A stretch of 64,000 bases of DNA, taken from positions 1 through 64,000 of the forward strand of contig JASANC010005206.1 of the NCBI GenBank assembly GCA_030248135.1, in the 5' to 3' direction. Position 1 is the stretch's first letter; each line of letters starts with the position of its first letter. The stretch comes from Theristus sp. LFF4_11. Its lineage: Eukaryota; Nematoda; Chromadorea; Monhysterida; Xyalidae. This document shows positions 8,840 to 19,196 of this stretch, piece after piece. A program made the position numbers and the translations under genes. The notes under the pieces are model-generated. The model was not told where the DNA came from and ran no database searches. It saw nothing but the letters and a program-made list of their open reading frames with translations.

Positions 8840-10049
8840 CATAGTTGTTCTAGGGGGGGGCCTGGGGGGGCCGGGCCGGCCCCCCAAAAAATTTTCGAAT
8901 CTATCTCTATCAAATAGGTTTATTCGGCTCAGCTATTATCTATCTAAAAAATTTTCTCAGCCAGCTATCTATCTGAAAATGTTTGTCTTCGAAGACATAA
9001 AATGAGTCAATTTTTGACCAAAATTGACCATTTTTGCTCGTAATTCTTGTAATTTTCGCCAATTTTAGGTAAAATACGCGTTTATACTTGATTTTTAGTG
9101 TATTTTTAGCATTATTTTGTTGTTTTTATAGCTTTTTAGCGTTTTAGCTATCTATCTATCAAATTTCAAAATTTTGACCGGCCCCCCCCAAAGTCACATG
9201 GCCCCCCCGCGGCCCCCCCCCCCAAAATTTTCCAGCTATCTATCTATCTGGAAAATTTGCTCCAGCTATCTATATCGGCCCCGGGTTGTTAAACAAAAAT
9301 GAAAATTTTTTTTTTTTAAAAAAAAGTGATTAAAAAAAAACAAAAATGCCGATTTTTTTTTAAAAAAAAAAATTCGAAAAATTTTCCTCTAATATGCTCT
9401 GAAAACCTCAATTTTGGCACAATTTTTCGAAAGTTCAACAAAAATTTTCTTTGATTATACCTCGTAAAACCTTTAGCAGTCGATTTTGGGCCGTTTTACC
9501 GACTGATTTTAGGCTTCGTCAACATCTGCGATGAAGTTTTTGAGCGTCCCAAAGCTTAGCCTACCATTTCCGATGCAGATAAGGTGACGATTAGCCTCGC
9601 AGAGCGTCCGATTGTGCTCGCTGCACCGTTTGCAAGCGCTACGTTGTCTGGTTGCTGCTTCGTGTCGTGTCGTCGCGACACCATCAGAAGAATTGATCGA
9701 ATTTCAAGGCGGTATGTTTGTCTTCACTTCAGCATTAGCTTAGCTGGGGAGAATTAGTGACGTTTTGGAGGTCAAAACACAAGAAGAGGCATGGTGACGG
9801 TTTGGAAAAGGGGTAATTGAGGTCACCAAAACAAAATCTGCAAAGTTCCGCCATACGGGTGTCATTCGGGAGGCGCTTGCATATCATATGTGGTTCTTCG
9901 GACTCCCTGATTGATTTAGCACAACTTTGATTTTTGAAATTTTTTTTTAAAAAAAAAAATTTTTTTTTTAAAAAAAAAACAAAAATGACGATTTTTGTTT
10001 TTTTTAACAACCCTGCCCCCCCCAACCCCTCGGCTCTGGAACAACTATG
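8840..10049 (+). mobile_element. Family D hAT-like element, complete copy (D2)
   Basis: Termini CATAGTTGTTCTAG and CTGGAACAACTATG form an imperfect inverted repeat. The perfect 8-bp direct repeat TCTGGGGG flanks it (8832-8839 and 10050-10057), so it is an 8-bp-duplication insertion inside the B1 element. The left third matches D1 at 664. A family C element sits inside. There is no transposase frame. Confidence 0.8.
9281..10015 (+). mobile_element. Family C hAT-like element (C2) nested in D2
   Basis: The terminal GGGTTGTTAAAC and TTTAACAACCC, the A/T-rich subterminal tracts and the core (CTCCCTGATTGATTTAGCAC and so on) match the complete reverse copy at 56474-57183. Its flanks are C-rich and no clean duplication can be read here. 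Confidence 0.7.
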
Positions 10050-10083
10050 TCTGGGGGTGCACACCCCACCGCCCACGGTACTG

Positions 10084-10340
10084 ACCCCAGTGCGCACAAA
10101 AAAATTAATAAAAAATCGGCATTTAGAATTTAGATCGAACCCTGCTGTGTTTAAAACGAGCGTGCTAACCACCGAGCCACGGGAGGACGGTGGAAGAGAC
10201 AATTCTGAAACATTGTTGAACTGAAACTGTCAATCATAGTCCATCCAGATCCAATCAGGACCACTGCAGTTTTATTTTAATGAACAATTCTGCTGGGATT
10301 TCGATCCAAAAGTTGTCGTGTCTCGTCGTAATCGTGCGAC
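10084..10340. other. Upstream region of smg-5
   Basis: About 260 bp between the transposon nest and the smg-5 start codon. It must hold the smg-5 promoter and 5' UTR, but I see no TATA box or other clear element. No gene is seen. Confidence 0.3.
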
Positions 10341-13300
10341 ATGGAAGCGCCGAAGCGGTCAAATGAAGAAAATGGAAAAATTCGAGAACTTTACAAGTAA
10401 GCAAGTAATGTCGCGTCCGTGGCGTAGCGGTAGAACTTCGGCCTACAGTTCTGTAGGTACCGGGTTCGAACCTCGCTGTGGACAAGACATACTCGTGGAA
10501 AATTAGAGTGACCAATGAACATCTAATGGTCTATTCCCTCCTGAGCCGAGGGTAAAATTGGGCTCGGGGCAGTATTGCCCGTCTCCGCCGGAGTTTGGTA
10601 CCTTCGGGTTTCCGGAACCGGCGCGCGTACAAACAAATAAATAAAAAAAAATAAGCATTACTTCTCAGAACAGAAACAACGTTTTTTGTTTTGTTTTTCT
10701 GTTGTGTGAGTGTGACCATCAAATTCTATTTCACCGTGCATTTCTAATTGCCACAATAGGATCGCATCAAGTTGTGTCAAAAAATTGGACGCTGCTTCCT
10801 CTGCTCCTGCTGCCACCCAATCATCAAACACTGACGACGATGAGCGTCTTGTTTTGCGAAACAGGTTTTGAGAAAATCTAGATAATATATACAATTAGCT
10901 GAGTGGTTGGTTTGGTTGCACACACGTGCAGTTGATGTGTGAATGAACTCTGTGTAGCCAAACTCCGCCTCTCCAGCAATGCCTGCACAGAATGCACACA
11001 CGCATGCATGCATCAACTGCACGTGTGTGTAATCAACCAATCAGTTAGTTCTAGTTGTATATATTATTCTGATGGACTGTGGTATGGTATGGCCGATTAA
11101 ACATGGCACCTTTTTTCAGGGTGCAAGGAGCGCGCGAAATTTGAATGAATGAAAAATACGTTTTGAAACCCATTTGTTTGACAAATTTGACGTGTTCTTT
11201 TGATTAATTGGTTCTTCGTGCTGTTCTGTTTATTCTTTGGACCTTGCACAGATGCATACACGACTGGAAACAATCAAACATTCTTGAAAAACACAACTCC
11301 TAGTCTGCAACTGGTTTCGCCTTGAGTGAGAAGACAAGGAGTGTCTTATTTATTCGGCCATATTCGTCTTTGGTGGGAGTTGGCCACGGGCCCACGGCAC
11401 GAATTCAGTTGTCAAAGCTCGTGATTTGCAGTTATTGTTTTAAACCAATAAGCTTTGCGCAGGATATGTGATGCGTGCGAGCAGTTGATTCTTCTGAATC
11501 CGGTTGCGTACGGTCGCAAAGCGGAGGATCTGATCTGGAAGAAATGCTTTTATGAGCCGATTCAGTCGATGCGAGCACGAAATGCAAAAACTGTAAGGAG
11601 ATCACGTTCAGTTGTGATCGGATTAGATTGGATCGACCTTGTTTTTTAGCAGTTTTCATAGAATAAAAAGAAATTGATCTGCTGTCGTGGTGACTCAATG
11701 AAACGAAGACGTGCTGCGTGTGTGTGGTTTCAGCGGCTGCCACTCGCGGAGCGCAGTCGTGCGTTGCTGTTGCTGAATGCGGCGCATGGCCACTACACTG
11801 GTCACATCGCACGTCTCTGCATCCGCTACCCATCAGTGTGCTCTGATGTGCCATTGTTGATGGCAGCAGATGAGCGCGACGATGTCGATGATGTGCCCGT
11901 TGATGACGCGCTGCACCAGTTTGTCATCGCATCGCTCTATCGCTCGCACGTCTGCATCGGCGATCTCTGTTCGTTCGGCTTTGTTGTTGTTCGTTGCTCA
12001 AAACGTTACTGCCTGTGTTTGTCAATAGTGGTTTCGCAATGATTCCAAATCGTCGTTTGAACTGAATGACTGCTCAATTACGGTGATCATGTGTTGTTTC
12101 AGTGCGTTACAAACTGTACTTCATTGAGAGCAATGACGTCGCACAGTCAGTGCGTGCAACGGCCGTGCACTATTATCGGCTGGCAACCGCCATAATGCCG
12201 AACAATGGTTTGCTGTCAGAGATTGCTTGCTGGCTCACCATGATTGCCACTGTTGTCGTGTTCATTCAGGCATGCCGTACAATCAGTTGGGCACATTGTT
12301 CACTGGCGACAACAACGGACTGCACTCGATGTACTATTACATGCGATGGTTAGCAGCCGTTTTGTTCTCCAAAGCGAAAGTCATTTTTGTTTTGTTAGCC
12401 GAATCTTCAACATTCTTTTTTTCGTGATTCGTAGTGTCAGCTTAAAATTCGACTGTTATTTATTGCAGCTTGTTTTCGCCGATTATTTTTGATGCCGCCA
12501 AGGAAAACCTCGAATAGTATTGAAAGTGACACCAAATTATCCCACACACCCGGACTTTTGGCAATGAGTTTTTTCGTAAAATGTCGAACTAAAATTCATA
12601 AAGCTCGCAGCTTCATTGCAGTGTGTCGTCGGACGCAACTTTTGTGTGCAGTCAACTGGATGCAGCCATTGCCACCGGCTGCTTGCCAAGCTCGGTGGAC
12701 GCTGCGTGCGTGATGAAGATTGCAGTGACGCTGGTCATGGCTGTGCACACGGCAAACCCAGTAACTCGCAGCAGAGTTGGTCTGTGGCCGATTTTGACAG
12801 CTTCATACAAGCACTCGTGCAGTCAGCCAATCCAAATGGTCAACTGCTGCATAATGAGTTCATTTGAATTGAGCGCTCCAGTTGGTCGTCATTAGTCAAG
12901 CACAGTCAAACTGTGAAACATTGGTATTCTGACATTTTAATCTGACACGATAATTGGATGTATCACGCTGCTTGGGCCAGTCAGTGAGCCGGAATCAAAA
13001 GCAGCCATTCAGCTGATTGCTTATGATTTACGGTTCAACTGCAACGCATCGCCGGTTTTGAAAAACAAGCAAAACCGTTTTACGGATCTTTTAGCGAGCC
13101 ATGGCGCACAGCTGATCTCGTTGGTCACGAACGTGCTGCTGCGATTGTATGGGAGCCTCGCCACGCACGTCGTGCAGTCGCTCGCTGCTGCAACTGATGT
13201 GACAGCCTCCGTTGAGAACAATCGAACGAACGTCTGTCTCGCTTAAAAAGGCTTCTTCTAAATTGCTGTCTGAATCAAACGTGCGTTCCGGATCACTCAG

Positions 13301-16300
13301 GAAGAACAAGAGGCAAGCGACGATGACGTGGCACTTTCGGCAGCCAAGTCCAATGGCGACGAGCACGCGAGCAAGAGCAAGCCCCGTGCGCGTTTGTTTT
13401 TGCAGCGACGACGCCGTGGCTCAGACAGCTCGGAGGATGCGTCCGATCGGGAGCACTCGCACGAGCACGACGACGCTGCTGCAAATGGTTCTTTAGATTC
13501 ACTTTCTAGCCCCCCCCCCATTACCAAAAAAATCATTTTGGTTTTGGTTATCGTTCGCTTTTCAGCATTGATTCTCGTCGTGAATGTTTCACGTTGTTTT
13601 TGTTACAGACGACATTCTGTCACTCGATTCAGACGACAGCGACGCGAACAGTGACGACGGAAATGGGGGCACTGAAGTGGTGAACGGCACTGAGGTGCTC
13701 TGCTGTGCTGAGACATCGACGCAACAAACACGCGATGCGTTGTCTGCCTCGCAAACGTACGCCTGCTTTCATGTGCTCTTTACATCATTGCTAAGTTGTG
13801 AACGTGCAGCTGGCTAATATATGCAAGTAGCTGATTGGTTGGTTGCACACACGTGTACTTGATGCGTGCACCTTTGTGGGCATTGCTGTGGTGGCGGTGG
13901 CGTAGTGTGGTTTTGTATAGAACGCATGCATCAACTGCACGCGTTTGCAACCAACCAGTAAGCTAGTTGTATATAATTAGCCAGATGGAGTTGTGATACG
14001 GAATCTAATATTATTGTTGACGTTATTAGTGTTGATGTCAAACGTGTTTGGCTGGTGTTTCAGTGAGTCAATTTTTACAACTACAAAAATAGCTGCTGTT
14101 TCAGCGATTCATCAGCGAGTTTGAACGAGTTGCTGGCGGCTGACCTGCTCGCAGTGGATGGCTGGCTGATGGCACTGAAGGTGATCGCGGACTGCGTGCG
14201 TGCCAGTGCTGCATGGATGGTGATTGATGATGCACAGGTTACAGGCATTGTCATTGTCACCAAATGTTGTTTTGTTAGCCATCTGACTGGTTGAGTTTCA
14301 TTTACCGGTTGATCTAAATTTGAGCACAATGCACCAGTATAATTCAAAAACGCCCGTTATTCATTTGCAGAACTTGAGCGAGTTTTATGAACGACTGGTG
14401 CGTCTGCATAACTTGCTCGTTCAGCAGTACAACACAGCAGCGGACACCGGCTTGTCGCACTCAGCACCTCTGCCGGAAGACATCAGTCTGCAGGCGGCAA
14501 CGTTCTTGGCAGACGTGCATGCCAAGCTCGACTTCCATTCCACTGTGAAACTGTCCGCCATTGATGTGGTCTGCGATTCGTTTCGTGTTTTTGAGACGCC
14601 ATTTTGCACTATTGTTTTCGTTTTTTATTGCAGCGACGAATTCGTGTACGGCTGATCGTGCAATTCGGCCGTTACATGGCGTCGCGTGATCCGACTCGAC
14701 TGCGGTATGACGAGCGGACGAATGAAATGAGCTGCCTTGGGCTTGTTGGGCACACTGACAAAGTGCGCAGAACATATTATGATGTGATTGATGATGATTT
14801 ATTCCAGTTCCATCAGTTTTTCTTCACTGCAGAAAGACGGTGCTGAGCGAATGGACATGATGCGGCGAATGGCGAGACTGCGAGCAGATGTACGTTTGTC
14901 TGTGTTGCTTGGTGAATTGGAAGCAGCTAACAAGAAATTAACTGCCTTTGCTCAGTAATTGCAATCGAAAACTTGCAAACTAAACGTGTGTGTACCATCT
15001 GCTTTTCAGTGAAACCAGGCCGTGCATTTCAAACAGACATTATCCATAACGCGATTTTGTACTGCACGCTCCCGTTTCACTTGGAACGCATCACGGAAAC
15101 GCAATTGACTCAATGACTACTAAAGAAAAAAAACAGTCTGAGAAGTTCGATTGCATGATGTTCGCAGGAAGAGCTGCAGCACATGGCGCACATCGACTGG
15201 ATCCCGGTGTACCTGGTGCCGGACACGGAGGCGCTGCTGAGTGCGTTGGCGCCGCTGAAGCAGCTGGCTGCTGCGCACCGCTTTGTGCTGGTCGTGGCGC
15301 CGTCCGTGCTCGCTGCACTCGACAGACACAAAAAGGACACCGCGGCCGCACGCGACGCCATCCGCTGGCTGGAGACGTGCGTCGCCCACGGCTCCAAGTA
15401 CGTGCGACAGCCGAAGCCGCACGAACACCGGCTGGTCGCCAGGCCGAGCGACGTCTCCGAGTGAGTTCTCAGCGCGTTCCGCTCAGTTTCCGTCGGATGT
15501 TTTGCGTTTCATTGTGCCCAGTCAGTCTGTTAGTTCGTTGCAGTGAAACGTTCGATGTGCTCTGTTTGGTCGGTGGTCTGTGCGGCAGCATGGGCAGTAG
15601 GGGTGGTAAAAAACGGTTTTTTTCAAATCCATGTATATAAAACGGTTTTTTATACCGCGTCCGGTTCTTTATACCCGGTTTTTTTACCGACCCAGTATTT
15701 GAAGAATCTTGTGATTGCGACAATTTCTGGTACTCTGATTTTACGCAAACCGCTGAATAATGAGTAAAAGACCACAATTCTAGCCAGAAACTGTATGTGT
15801 TTCAATGGAAACGTATTCCAATCTTGATTTTATTTGTATCGGTGGCGCTTAGAGAGAATGCAGCATCAGAAAAATTATCAGATGCGAGTTTAAAACAAAA
15901 AAAACTAACGCAAGACAGATTGATATTTGAAACAGCAAGGAATGTGATACATGCAAATCAATTGAACTGACACGATCGAGAGATATGCACAACAATTTCA
16001 CCGCGTTTCTAAATAAAATATCACCGAAAGACAAAAAGAATCACGAACCCGCACAGACGAAAGAAGTGAACCAAGAACAAAATTGAAAGAGCAAAAAATC
16101 AGATGGAGATTCGGGTCACTATCACCAGTACAACAGCACGACGACATCACCAACAAAACTTTGAGCAATTTCCGAGTTCAAAGACACAAAATTTCAGGAA
16201 ATTTGACTGAATAAATATTAGCAATTCACCCGATTTTTGTCTATTCGTCATCATCATCATGAGTATCATCAATGCAGCCGTCACCATCATCATCAGTGAA

Positions 16301-17061
16301 GTCGTCATCAGAGCTGTCCACACAATTTGCCGATGCAAGCGCAGCAATGTTCTCAGTGGCAGCAGCTGACGCTGTCGACGGGGACTGCGAATCCGTGCTG
16401 TCGCAGTTTGACAGCAACGATTCCGTGCTGTTGCCAGCAACACTTGACACGGGTCTCAGGGTGCTTTATTTATACCAAGAGCGTGAATTGTGTTCTCCGG
16501 AACATCAAGTTATGAAGTGGCGAAAATGAAAATTGAAATGGATATGCGGAATACAGTGCATTTTGAGTGATTTCAAAAATTGAAATTTGGGTCCTTCGGC
16601 GGTATAAAAAACCGGAAAAAAACCAAAATTTACGCGGTAAAATATCGGTAATTTATTTTGGCCATTTTTTGGCGCTGGTATAAAAAACCGTTTTTTATAC
16701 CGTTTTTTATACCGAAAAAAACCGTTTTTTATACCGACCCACCCCTAATGGGCAGAGCGGCCGTTGCCAGCAGCACGATCGTCACCGTGCTCTGCGGATT
16801 CCACCCGCGCTCCGATGCGTTCAAACGACTGCGTTCTGCGTTGGTGCACACGGCACTCGCTGGTTGGTGCATCTGTGTCAAGCCATTACGCAGGTTTCAA
16901 TTGAAGCACCCAGCTTCACTCTGCACCTCTGCACCGAACCATTCCATGAATTGGATTTGAAATTACAGCGTGTTTTTTTCGTGTCTTCAGGTGTGAACAT
17001 CAGCGGCGTACGTGCATTTCTGAATCGGTGGGATCGTCACAAGCGAAAGCAACGTGGCTGA
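10341..17061 (+). CDS. smg-5: SMG5 nonsense-mediated mRNA decay factor
   Basis: Exons: 10341-10396, 10760-10864, 11463-11592, 11734-11968, 12103-12207, 12270-12348, 12469-12516, 12622-12760, 13070-13198, 13301-13487, 13609-13756, 14105-14237, 14371-14565, 14634-14762, 14833-14889, 15168-15460, 15544-15597 continuing at 16756-16862, and 16991-17061. All phases agree (2,400 nt, 799 residues; human SMG5 is about 1,016). The N-terminal 14-3-3-like/EST1 region has LILLNPVAYGRKAEDLIWKK and MPYNQLGTLF. An acidic Ser/Asp linker follows, then the C-terminal PIN domain (PVYLVPDTEALLSAL, ARDAIRWLE). SMG5 binds phospho-UPF1 and supports decay of transcripts with premature stops; its PIN domain is catalytically degenerate in other animals. 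Exon 17 is split by a 1,150-bp hAT-like element. Exon 9's start is the least certain boundary. Confidence 0.9.
10410..10652 (+). repeat. tRNA-derived SINE, full-length copy (in smg-5 intron 1)
   Basis: The head is tRNA-like, with an A box TGGCGTAGCGGT (10420-10431) and a B box GGTTCGAACCT (10463-10473), the two internal RNA polymerase III promoter elements. The body (GAGCCGAGGGTAAAATTGGG, CTCCGCCGGAGTTTGGTACC, GGTTTCCGGAACCGG) is shared with copies at 547-662 and 34289-34502, and the tail is A-rich (AAACAAATAAATAAAAAAA). It lies in the first intron of smg-5, sense to the gene. Confidence 0.85.
10890..11062. repeat. Palindromic MITE, family G copy 1 (smg-5 intron 2)
   Basis: The two arms are inverted: TACAATTAGCTGAGTGGTTG...GCACACACGTGCAGTTGATG on the left, and CATCAACTGCACGTGTGTG...CCAATCAGTTAGTTCTAGTTG on the right. 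Related copies lie at 13815-13977 and 33465-33612. It is short, non-coding and intronic. Confidence 0.7.
13815..13977. repeat. Palindromic MITE, family G copy 2 (smg-5 intron 11)
   Basis: Inverted arms: GTAGCTGATTGGTTGGTTGC with CACACGTGTACTTGATG at the left, and CATCAACTGCACGCG with GCAACCAACCAGTAAGCTAG at the right. It is the same family as 10890-11062, sitting in the intron between exons 11 and 12. Confidence 0.7.
15598..16747. mobile_element. Family H hAT-like element inside a smg-5 coding exon
   Basis: 1,150 bp with termini TAGGGGTGG and CCCACCCCTA, flanked by the perfect 8-bp direct repeat ATGGGCAG (15590-15597 and 16748-16755). The subterminal regions carry many inverted copies of CGGTTTTTTATACCG, as in hAT elements. 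No transposase is present; the interior has only a CAT/ATC-rich stretch near 16245-16320. Deleting the element and one duplication gives an uninterrupted smg-5 frame. Unspliced, the element brings an in-frame stop about 15 codons past its left edge. Confidence 0.9.
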
Positions 17062-17080
17062 ACATGAAAATGGCCTGGTG

Positions 17081-17086
17081 AATAAA
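17081..17086 (+). terminator. Polyadenylation signal AATAAA of smg-5
   Basis: AATAAA lies 20 bases past the smg-5 stop codon, close but within the normal range for compact genomes. Confidence 0.5.
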
Positions 17087-19196
17087 TACCAGTTACGACA
17101 AAACCGAGTTTGCCGTTCTGGAATATACACGACTAATGAATCGCTGGTACCGCAAACAGCTTCAGTAACCATCAAACACTGACAATACGCACTTGAGTAC
17201 CAGCGGAGTGATGTGGTACACCAGACCGGCTGCTTCAAATGACTGGAAAAGAAAATCCAAAAAATAAAACTGGCATTATTGCCATTTTATGCTTCGGGCT
17301 CAACGATTGAACAGAGCATGTGGCCGTCAGAAACCGAATTGTTATTATGGCTGTTGTTGTTTGCAAACGGTCTTCTGTTCAGTTTTCCTTGTTATTCCTG
17401 CGTTGATGATTTCTCAGAATGCTTTCACATTTCACGGTATCCATGTATAATTGTGTTTGTTACGTTCTGGGCTGATTATGGAGGATAAAGCTGACATGAA
17501 CATGATGCGCTCGTGTTGCGGCACTCATTGCAGCAGTGTTCTGGTTGTTTCAGGCACTGTGTCGCCCCTCTGAGGCGAATATTTCCAGCCAATGTCAACG
17601 TGCCAATTGAAATTGCTCGTTCGTGTGGTGTCTGTTTCAGGGAGGACGCTTTGGGCGTGCTGATTGACTGCGTACATTTGCGATGCCAGTCCGCGAAATG
17701 GTGTAAATAATAGATTGATCTAATCATGGCCACTGTTGTATTTGCTTGCCATTAACAGCAAGCACCGCGTCAAATGTATTTCTTTGTACATGTCGCTGCT
17801 GCGCTCGTCTGTGGTCCCCTCCCCTGCCAAACGCAAAAGACAGCAGCCAGTCAGGCCCATCATGTTATGTTTGTCGGGTTGTTACGCTAAATCTGCTCTT
17901 CATATTATTTCTACACACAGAGCACACACGGCGCAGCAGCAATTTACGACTAGCGCACACAGCTCCGTCAATCTATGTGCGTGTGTGTGTCCACGTGGCC
18001 ATGTGCCCTCTGCTGATTGGTCGTGTGCTGCGCCAGCGAATGAGCGTGCAGGGTGCGCCACGTGGCTGCGGTGTGCACGTGGACAACGCTGTTGGTGGGG
18101 TGCGCAACTGTTAGATTGGTTGTCACCCGTGCGCATGCTCCGCTGCACTCAGCTGCCGACGTTGCACTAGTGTTCTCGTGTGTGCTCTGTCTCTGCACAC
18201 ACACACCACTGTGCTTGTTGTCTGTGTTGTTGGCTGAGGCGCTCACATCACTTGGTCTGCCCTGCTCTCGCCTGTCCGTTTCGGTGTGTGTGCCTATGTG
18301 AACGAGCCAATGTGTTGTCCATTCTCAAATCGTCTTTTTCGTTCGTCTCTGCTGCTCAGCTTCTTCGATACACGTCGGCCGTCAGCGCTTGCGTGTATCA
18401 CTTGCGGCGCATGTGACCGCTGCATGCGCCTCTTGCAGCCGTATTGTTTTTGTTGTTTTTACCAGTCAATTAGATCACAACTCTGTCTACTTGTGCATTG
18501 GCCGATCTGCTCACTTTCACCCGTTCTCTGCGCCGTCGCCCGCCCCGTGTTGTTTTTGTTTTTCCATGTTTTTCCGCCGCACAATTTGTCCATCCCATCG
18601 ACCAGCGGGTTCGTCTTGTTCTCACGTGACAGCAGGTCTACTGTGCAATGTGTTTTTTCTATTTCCAATGTATCGTTTCACGATCGACAGCCACCGCTGG
18701 TGGTGTGTATGCGTGTTTTTATAGCGTTGCTGACGACGTGATTTGCGCATTCGGCGCAGGCACACCAGTGTGTTCGTTCAATGTTCTCTCAACCGCTCCA
18801 ACTTGTGTTCCCATGTGTTTCACTGCGCTCGATGTGTTCTTTTCTATGGCTTTCCGGCTATTATGCGTTTATTATGCCAGTTTCGATTCACCCCGAAGCA
18901 GCTTGTGTGTGTATGTACTATGTGTTTTTTCTGTTGTTTGCCTCGCATTCTACACGTGAATCCAATTTATTGCGTTGCTTCAATTTTTAGAGAGTCTTTT
19001 ACGTGAACGCGCCACACTGCAACCACCGCACAAAAGCACTACTTGGCTTGATCTGTTTAAATTAGCCGCTGAATACTGTGCACAAAACAACTATTGTTAG
19101 CTGTCCGTTCGACCTTTTAATTCTGGAATATTACCAACTGATTCAATATTTCGATCCAAAGATGTACTAATTATCGTTCACGACACCAGCTGCAAC
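17087..19196. other. Intergenic region between smg-5 and unc-37
   Basis: About 2.1 kb, rich in T and TG steps. Several long plus-strand frames exist (17736-18170, 18286-18741), but they lack any protein pattern, are Cys/Phe/Val-heavy and overlap one another in all frames, so I treat them as non-coding. The region probably contains the unc-37 promoter and 5' UTR; no defined promoter element is seen. Confidence 0.4.

Follow-up and report, generated by a model that had tools for sequence, protein, structure and literature searches.

The window analysed here, 64,000 nucleotides of contig JASANC010005206.1 (assembly GCA_030248135.1) from the nematode Theristus sp. LFF4_11, contains on its plus strand a smg-5 gene whose second-last coding exon is split by a transposable element of 1150 bp, which we call H. 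A search with the MFP2 protein likewise points to a nematode, its best-scoring named relatives being 46-50% identical. The upstream exons of the gene, with the EST1 and EST1_DNA_bind regions, lie at 11463..14889, their boundaries being inferred from frame and homology, and they are followed by the exon in which, by homology, the PIN domain starts (15168..15460). The split PIN exon consists of a left part of 54 nt (15544..15597), placed by frame and SMG5 homology, and a right part of 107 nt (16756..16862), which the SMG5 profile does not find alone and which was recognised from the homology of the joined exon. The last coding exon (16991..17061), placed by frame and homology, ends with KRKQRG and then TGA.

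Regarding the identity of the gene, the three-frame translation of positions 9000-17100 contained EST1 (E 3.6e-6), EST1_DNA_bind (1.1e-5) and PIN_4 in the right order; PIN_4 fell short of the cut-off in this translation (E 0.006) and passed it when the exons were joined (E 1.2e-4). The joined PIN protein matched human SMG5 (2hwy) with an E of 1.4e-13 in one alignment that covers residues 14-167 of 175, so the SMG5 match extends to both sides of the insertion, whereas SMG6/EST1A was far behind (E 0.024). For the joined protein of 734 residues, 14 proteins were among the matches listed (best E 2.2e-47), eight of them named SMG5 and none from a named nematode, and a profile made from 13 of these 14 placed the smg-5 exons colinearly. 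The arrangement by which SMG5 is recognised is present, with the EST1 and EST1_DNA_bind regions ahead of a PIN domain that resembles SMG5 most, and to judge from these matches the interrupted gene is a real smg-5. We rejected a pseudogene that was already there before the insertion, because the exons that the profile clearly matches lie in colinear order and have open frames.

Two observations concern other parts of the gene. Around position 12760 of the window, in an upstream exon, there is a possible frame change where two frames score alike with the profile; it may reflect a missed intron or an indel of the assembly, or have no meaning. Furthermore, smg-5 contains two similar inverted-repeat elements, one in an inferred intron (10882-11067) and the other between inferred exons (13807-13987), with arms of 12 to 52 nt that are 83-94% complementary.

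H itself occupies 15598..16747 on the plus strand and was delimited by its ends, its inverted repeats and the copies of its family. Its termini are TAGGGGTGGT and, inverted, TAGGGGTGGGT, the inverted match between its own two ends being 80% over about 50 bp, and identical 8-bp target-site duplications, ATGGGCAG, flank it at 15590..15597 and 16748..16755 (both plus strand). Elements of the hAT type have short inverted ends of the form TAGGG(G/A)TG and produce 8-bp target duplications with the pattern nTnnnnAn. Ends of this form are present in H, and a perfect 8-bp duplication is found in 58 of the 63 distinct family copies having both flanks, which is more than chance; of these 58, 33 have T at position 2 and 35 have A at position 7. 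On its ends and duplications, H can be classified as a non-autonomous element of the hAT superfamily. At two other loci (L002 and L005) the flanks share seven bases and not eight (TGTGTCA and CAGTTGA).

Joined across the site, the exon reads ETFDVLCLVGGLCGSMG and then RAAVASSTIVTVLCGF, and the phases of its two parts fit. H divides the exon between a helix (LCGSMG) and a strand (TIVTVLCG), in a loop where the alignment length varies among SMG5 proteins. Without splicing, the frame runs through GSMGSRGGKKRFFSNPCI (short form MGSRGGKKRFFSNPCI) to a stop 14 residues beyond the last native glycine, and the product loses its last ~60 residues, the end of the PIN domain among them; skipping the split exon also shifts the frame. 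The original prediction had described a hAT-like element in the PIN exon with a perfect 8-bp duplication, 54 + 107 coding nt in fitting phases and an early stop on read-through, and our analysis agrees with it on each of these points. Its proposal that the insertion is younger than the exon is supported too, since the PIN domain of SMG5 runs on through the insertion point once the exon is joined.

The original prediction had also named a heterozygous empty allele as evidence against fixation. A 30-base pattern across the join, allowing up to three mismatches, was found nowhere else in the assembly; regarding a second smg-5 copy, neither the left-flank DNA (15150-15597) nor the joined PIN protein matched anything in the assembly beyond the locus. 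Thus no empty allele was found, but this is weak evidence for fixation, because the assembly keeps some, and not necessarily all, alternative copies. Elsewhere, one H insertion with its flanks occurs on two contigs (L007/L037 on G000:C1097 and L061 on G000:C1885) that are 99.45% identical over 3275 bp, a pair which may represent an alternative haplotype or a recent duplication retained in the assembly.

The assembly (159 Mb, 3744 contigs) contains 180 left ends (90 + 90) with at most two mismatches from the first 30 bases of H, whereas the backward control pattern of these bases had no match in it. The best 40 of 257 candidate matches, the smg-5 copy included, are 98-100% identical to H, and other copies are more distant, e.g. 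93-97%. From 78 loci we extracted 64 distinct copies; 10 left ends had no right end in reach, the end pattern did not pick up one locus (L008), and three same-site repeats were merged. Among 36 aligned copies of 1130-1175 bp, 34 are within 1.9% of the family consensus and two (L012 and L070) are at 15%. The smg-5 copy has eight gap columns in this alignment and differs from the consensus by five substitutions (0.44%), none of them private, its nearest relatives being four substitutions away; five substitutions without a private one indicate that the insertion is very recent. To judge from its copies, the H family has recently multiplied and been recently active.

No autonomous, transposase-coding partner with the ends of H was found among the scored hAT-domain candidates and the H copies looked at. 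hAT transposases are abundant in the genome: of 416 candidates found genome-wide for the hAT dimerisation domain, all 150 that were scored are matches, which makes 150 a lower bound. One H copy of 2687 bp with the perfect duplication AAACCGCA (L034 with L079, G000:C1059:32807 onward) was considered as the partner and rejected: the hAT dimerisation domain in it belongs to a second element of about 1.5 kb nested in the copy, to which the transposase was assigned because a copy of H positions 218-225 flanks it on each side. Another three copies (L036, L049 and L069), on different contigs, have the same duplication TACGGGAG and alike but diverged flanks; in all three, H occupies one and the same position within another repeat family, either via target choice or by being copied along.

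Splice sites were scored with a position-weight model built on 21 donors and 20 acceptors that had been inferred via reading frame and homology: those of 12 smg-5 introns, one of which is only 45 nt long and doubtful, plus nine donors and eight acceptors of a myosin-tail-like gene on the minus strand (46.2-49.9 kb). When left out, the inferred real acceptors scored between -1.0 and 14.4 bits, and 19 of the 20 scored at least 1.7. Donors were sought in the left part of the exon and the first 200 bases of H, and acceptors in the last 250 bases of H and the right part of the exon. The original prediction had combined a donor at 15597 or 15606 with an acceptor at 16757 and had taken this arrangement as the sign of a transposon-derived intron (introner). 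The donors have 2.6 and 1.2 bits respectively, which puts them at the 63rd and 38th percentile among the GTs of the window. The acceptor (16756..16757, plus strand, GGCAGAG/) is a GAG two bases past a CAG and reaches -6.5 bits, at the 24.5th percentile of AG. The nearer CAG acceptor at 16755 scores -4.3 bits, and both of these duplication-side acceptors are below all 20 inferred real ones. Acceptor 16755 shifts the frame with donor 15606 and also with donor 15597, since H starts with TA and a donor made with the last G of the duplication loses one base when paired with the CAG of the duplication. Element and duplication do not provide a workable splice geometry at the smg-5 copy.

The real element has 16 in-frame, stop-free GT-AG pairs, among which 15597/16757 ranks 8th with the 12-intron training set and 13th with the larger set. 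The pair 15616/16773 is first with the 12-intron set and the best-scoring in-frame pair with the larger one. Its donor, inside H (15616..15617, plus strand, ACG/GTTTTT), scores 5.7 bits, which is the 94.6th percentile of GT and above 15 of the 21 inferred real donors; its acceptor, in the native exon (16772..16773, plus strand, GCCAGCAG/), scores 0.7 bits, above one of the 20 inferred real acceptors. Therefore the donor is of normal strength and speaks for splicing, and the acceptor is weak, even though it is the best in the right part of the exon. The best of the eight AGs in 16500-16862 has 1.4 bits, against the 1.7 or more of 19 of the 20 inferred real ones, so there is no acceptor of the usual strength. 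Splicing at 15616/16773 would remove an intron of 1158 nt, exactly the inserted length, and would change RAAVASS into SRGGKKR.

When H was dinucleotide-shuffled at the smg-5 site, at least one in-frame, stop-free GT-AG pair was present in 300 of 300 cases, with a mean of 22.6 pairs per shuffled element vs 16 in the real one, and 35% of the shuffled elements reached the real best-pair score. The real H was also placed at 145 exon positions (the true one included); 62% of them yielded one pair or more and 14% reached the real best score. H reversed at the smg-5 site gave 44 pairs and a higher best score (9.1). Thus frame-keeping pairs are no evidence for an intron here, nor against one, and in general, finding an in-frame GT-AG pair that brackets an insertion does not by itself point to an intron. 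Of the splicing part of the original prediction, the two donors and the acceptor are there as letters, an in-frame pair being expected by chance; as a sign of an intron or introner, the arrangement finds no support.

We consider it extremely unlikely that the H family are introners whose copies routinely act as introns. According to PMC9860276, what identifies introners is that they are spliced as introns within genes, and its survey reports them in only two animal groups. Many introner families have a high copy number and the duplications and inverted ends of DNA transposons, features that H shares. The insertion sites speak against this reading. We analysed 57 sites, smg-5 included and a minority of those behind the 180 left ends, leaving out seven of the 64 copies (five with an imperfect duplication and two with a right flank below 200 bp). 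The longest frame across the joined site had a median of 101 aa vs 102 aa at random nearby positions, and frames of at least 120 aa occurred at 20 of the 57 sites vs 34% of the controls. A codon score was trained on 1738 codons from the window, those of smg-5 included (one training segment without a frame was skipped); its median was 4.6 at the insertions vs 4.9 at the controls, and its 90% quantile 18.8 vs 22.5. By this score smg-5 ranks first, with a value that is overstated because the top frame runs through an intron into the wrong frame of the preceding exon, and it is the only one of the 57 sites that is clearly mid-exon. A Pfam scan of eight spanning frames gave one clear domain, Syf1/CRNKL1 (L022), which ends before the insertion point.

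Without an excess of open or coding frames, H does not look like an introner family on the 57 sites tested, and the frame shift imposed by its TA start and the lack of a good splice pair at smg-5 point in the same direction. In the part of the literature searched, we met no report of a hAT introner in a nematode. A weak candidate for a second insertion within an exon is L015 (G000:C361), where the element at 1501 may lie 10 nt into coding sequence (TCACAG/CACAAGGAAG-element); past it the frame stays open and its codon score is high, but it contains no Pfam domain.

With the element, its duplication, its family, the gene and the break point directly observed, the consequence is probably the loss or strong weakening of the smg-5 allele by the recent insertion of H. 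A short non-autonomous hAT element of a recently multiplied family has very recently inserted into the PIN exon of the only assembled smg-5, and the transcripts of this allele would mostly either retain H and its stop or be spliced at poor, mostly out-of-frame sites. This would make the allele null or weak, and it may either be fixed in the sampled stock or still segregate. In C. elegans SMG-5 is needed for NMD and NMD genes can be lost, smg-1(r910) being a Tc1 null (PMC5765348). A loss of NMD as a whole was rejected: a UPF1 domain and another EST1_DNA_bind match are present elsewhere in the genome, and NMD as a whole does not appear to be lost.

It is rather unlikely that cryptic splicing removes H often enough for a working SMG5, most plausibly with the pair 15616/16773 and less so with the pairs of the original prediction. 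The 16 in-frame pairs, a donor as strong as most real ones and a replacement that falls in a loop of variable length speak for it. Moreover, in rsd-3(pk2013) of C. elegans, three of five cDNA clones kept the frame and carried 16 additional residues, a result put down by the authors to splicing or excision (PMC4910058, in its account of this allele). A Tc1 insertion in an exon can thus leave mostly in-frame messages and function, and weak splice scores do not exclude useful splicing. However, the acceptor remains weak and the best pair is equalled by about a third of the shuffled elements and surpassed by the reversed one. An assembly artefact or misjoin, with H absent from the exon in most genomes, is very improbable: highly similar repeats are hard to assemble, but at the join the 8 bp are duplicated without a mismatch, with the family's T at position 2 and A at position 7, and the 30-base empty site did not turn up elsewhere in the assembly within three mismatches.

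At this locus a young transposon family has, in nature and very recently, entered an RNA-surveillance gene, and the insertion is resolved to the base. If the allele is lost or weakened, as we favour, this would be a natural NMD-weak nematode; otherwise it would give a view of the splicing of a brand-new insertion before selection improves it. That a spliceosomal intron has been caught at birth in an NMD gene, with H removed inefficiently, seems improbable to us. In that case unspliced or mis-spliced smg-5 messages would be NMD targets, so that the splicing efficiency of the new intron and the strength of NMD would be coupled, and lower NMD would make exon insertions elsewhere better tolerated while the H family spreads.

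Among known systems, maize Ds is like H a hAT element in an exon and can be handled as an intron, although Ds is a plant element and its splicing was demonstrated. In nematodes, Rushforth and Anderson (1996) reportedly described Tc1 elements sitting in C. elegans exons. Such an insertion, rsd-3(pk2013), is like that of H a DNA transposon in a nematode coding exon; most of the Tc1 can be absent from the messages and part of the function kept, according to the account of this allele in PMC4910058. Nevertheless, Tc1 belongs to the Tc1/mariner group and its case has cDNA evidence, whereas the smg-5 insertion is a hAT element. Finally, smg-1(r910) of C. elegans is also a DNA transposon in a nematode NMD gene, but it is a Tc1 insertion, a laboratory null, and it affects smg-1 (PMC5765348, where this allele is dealt with).
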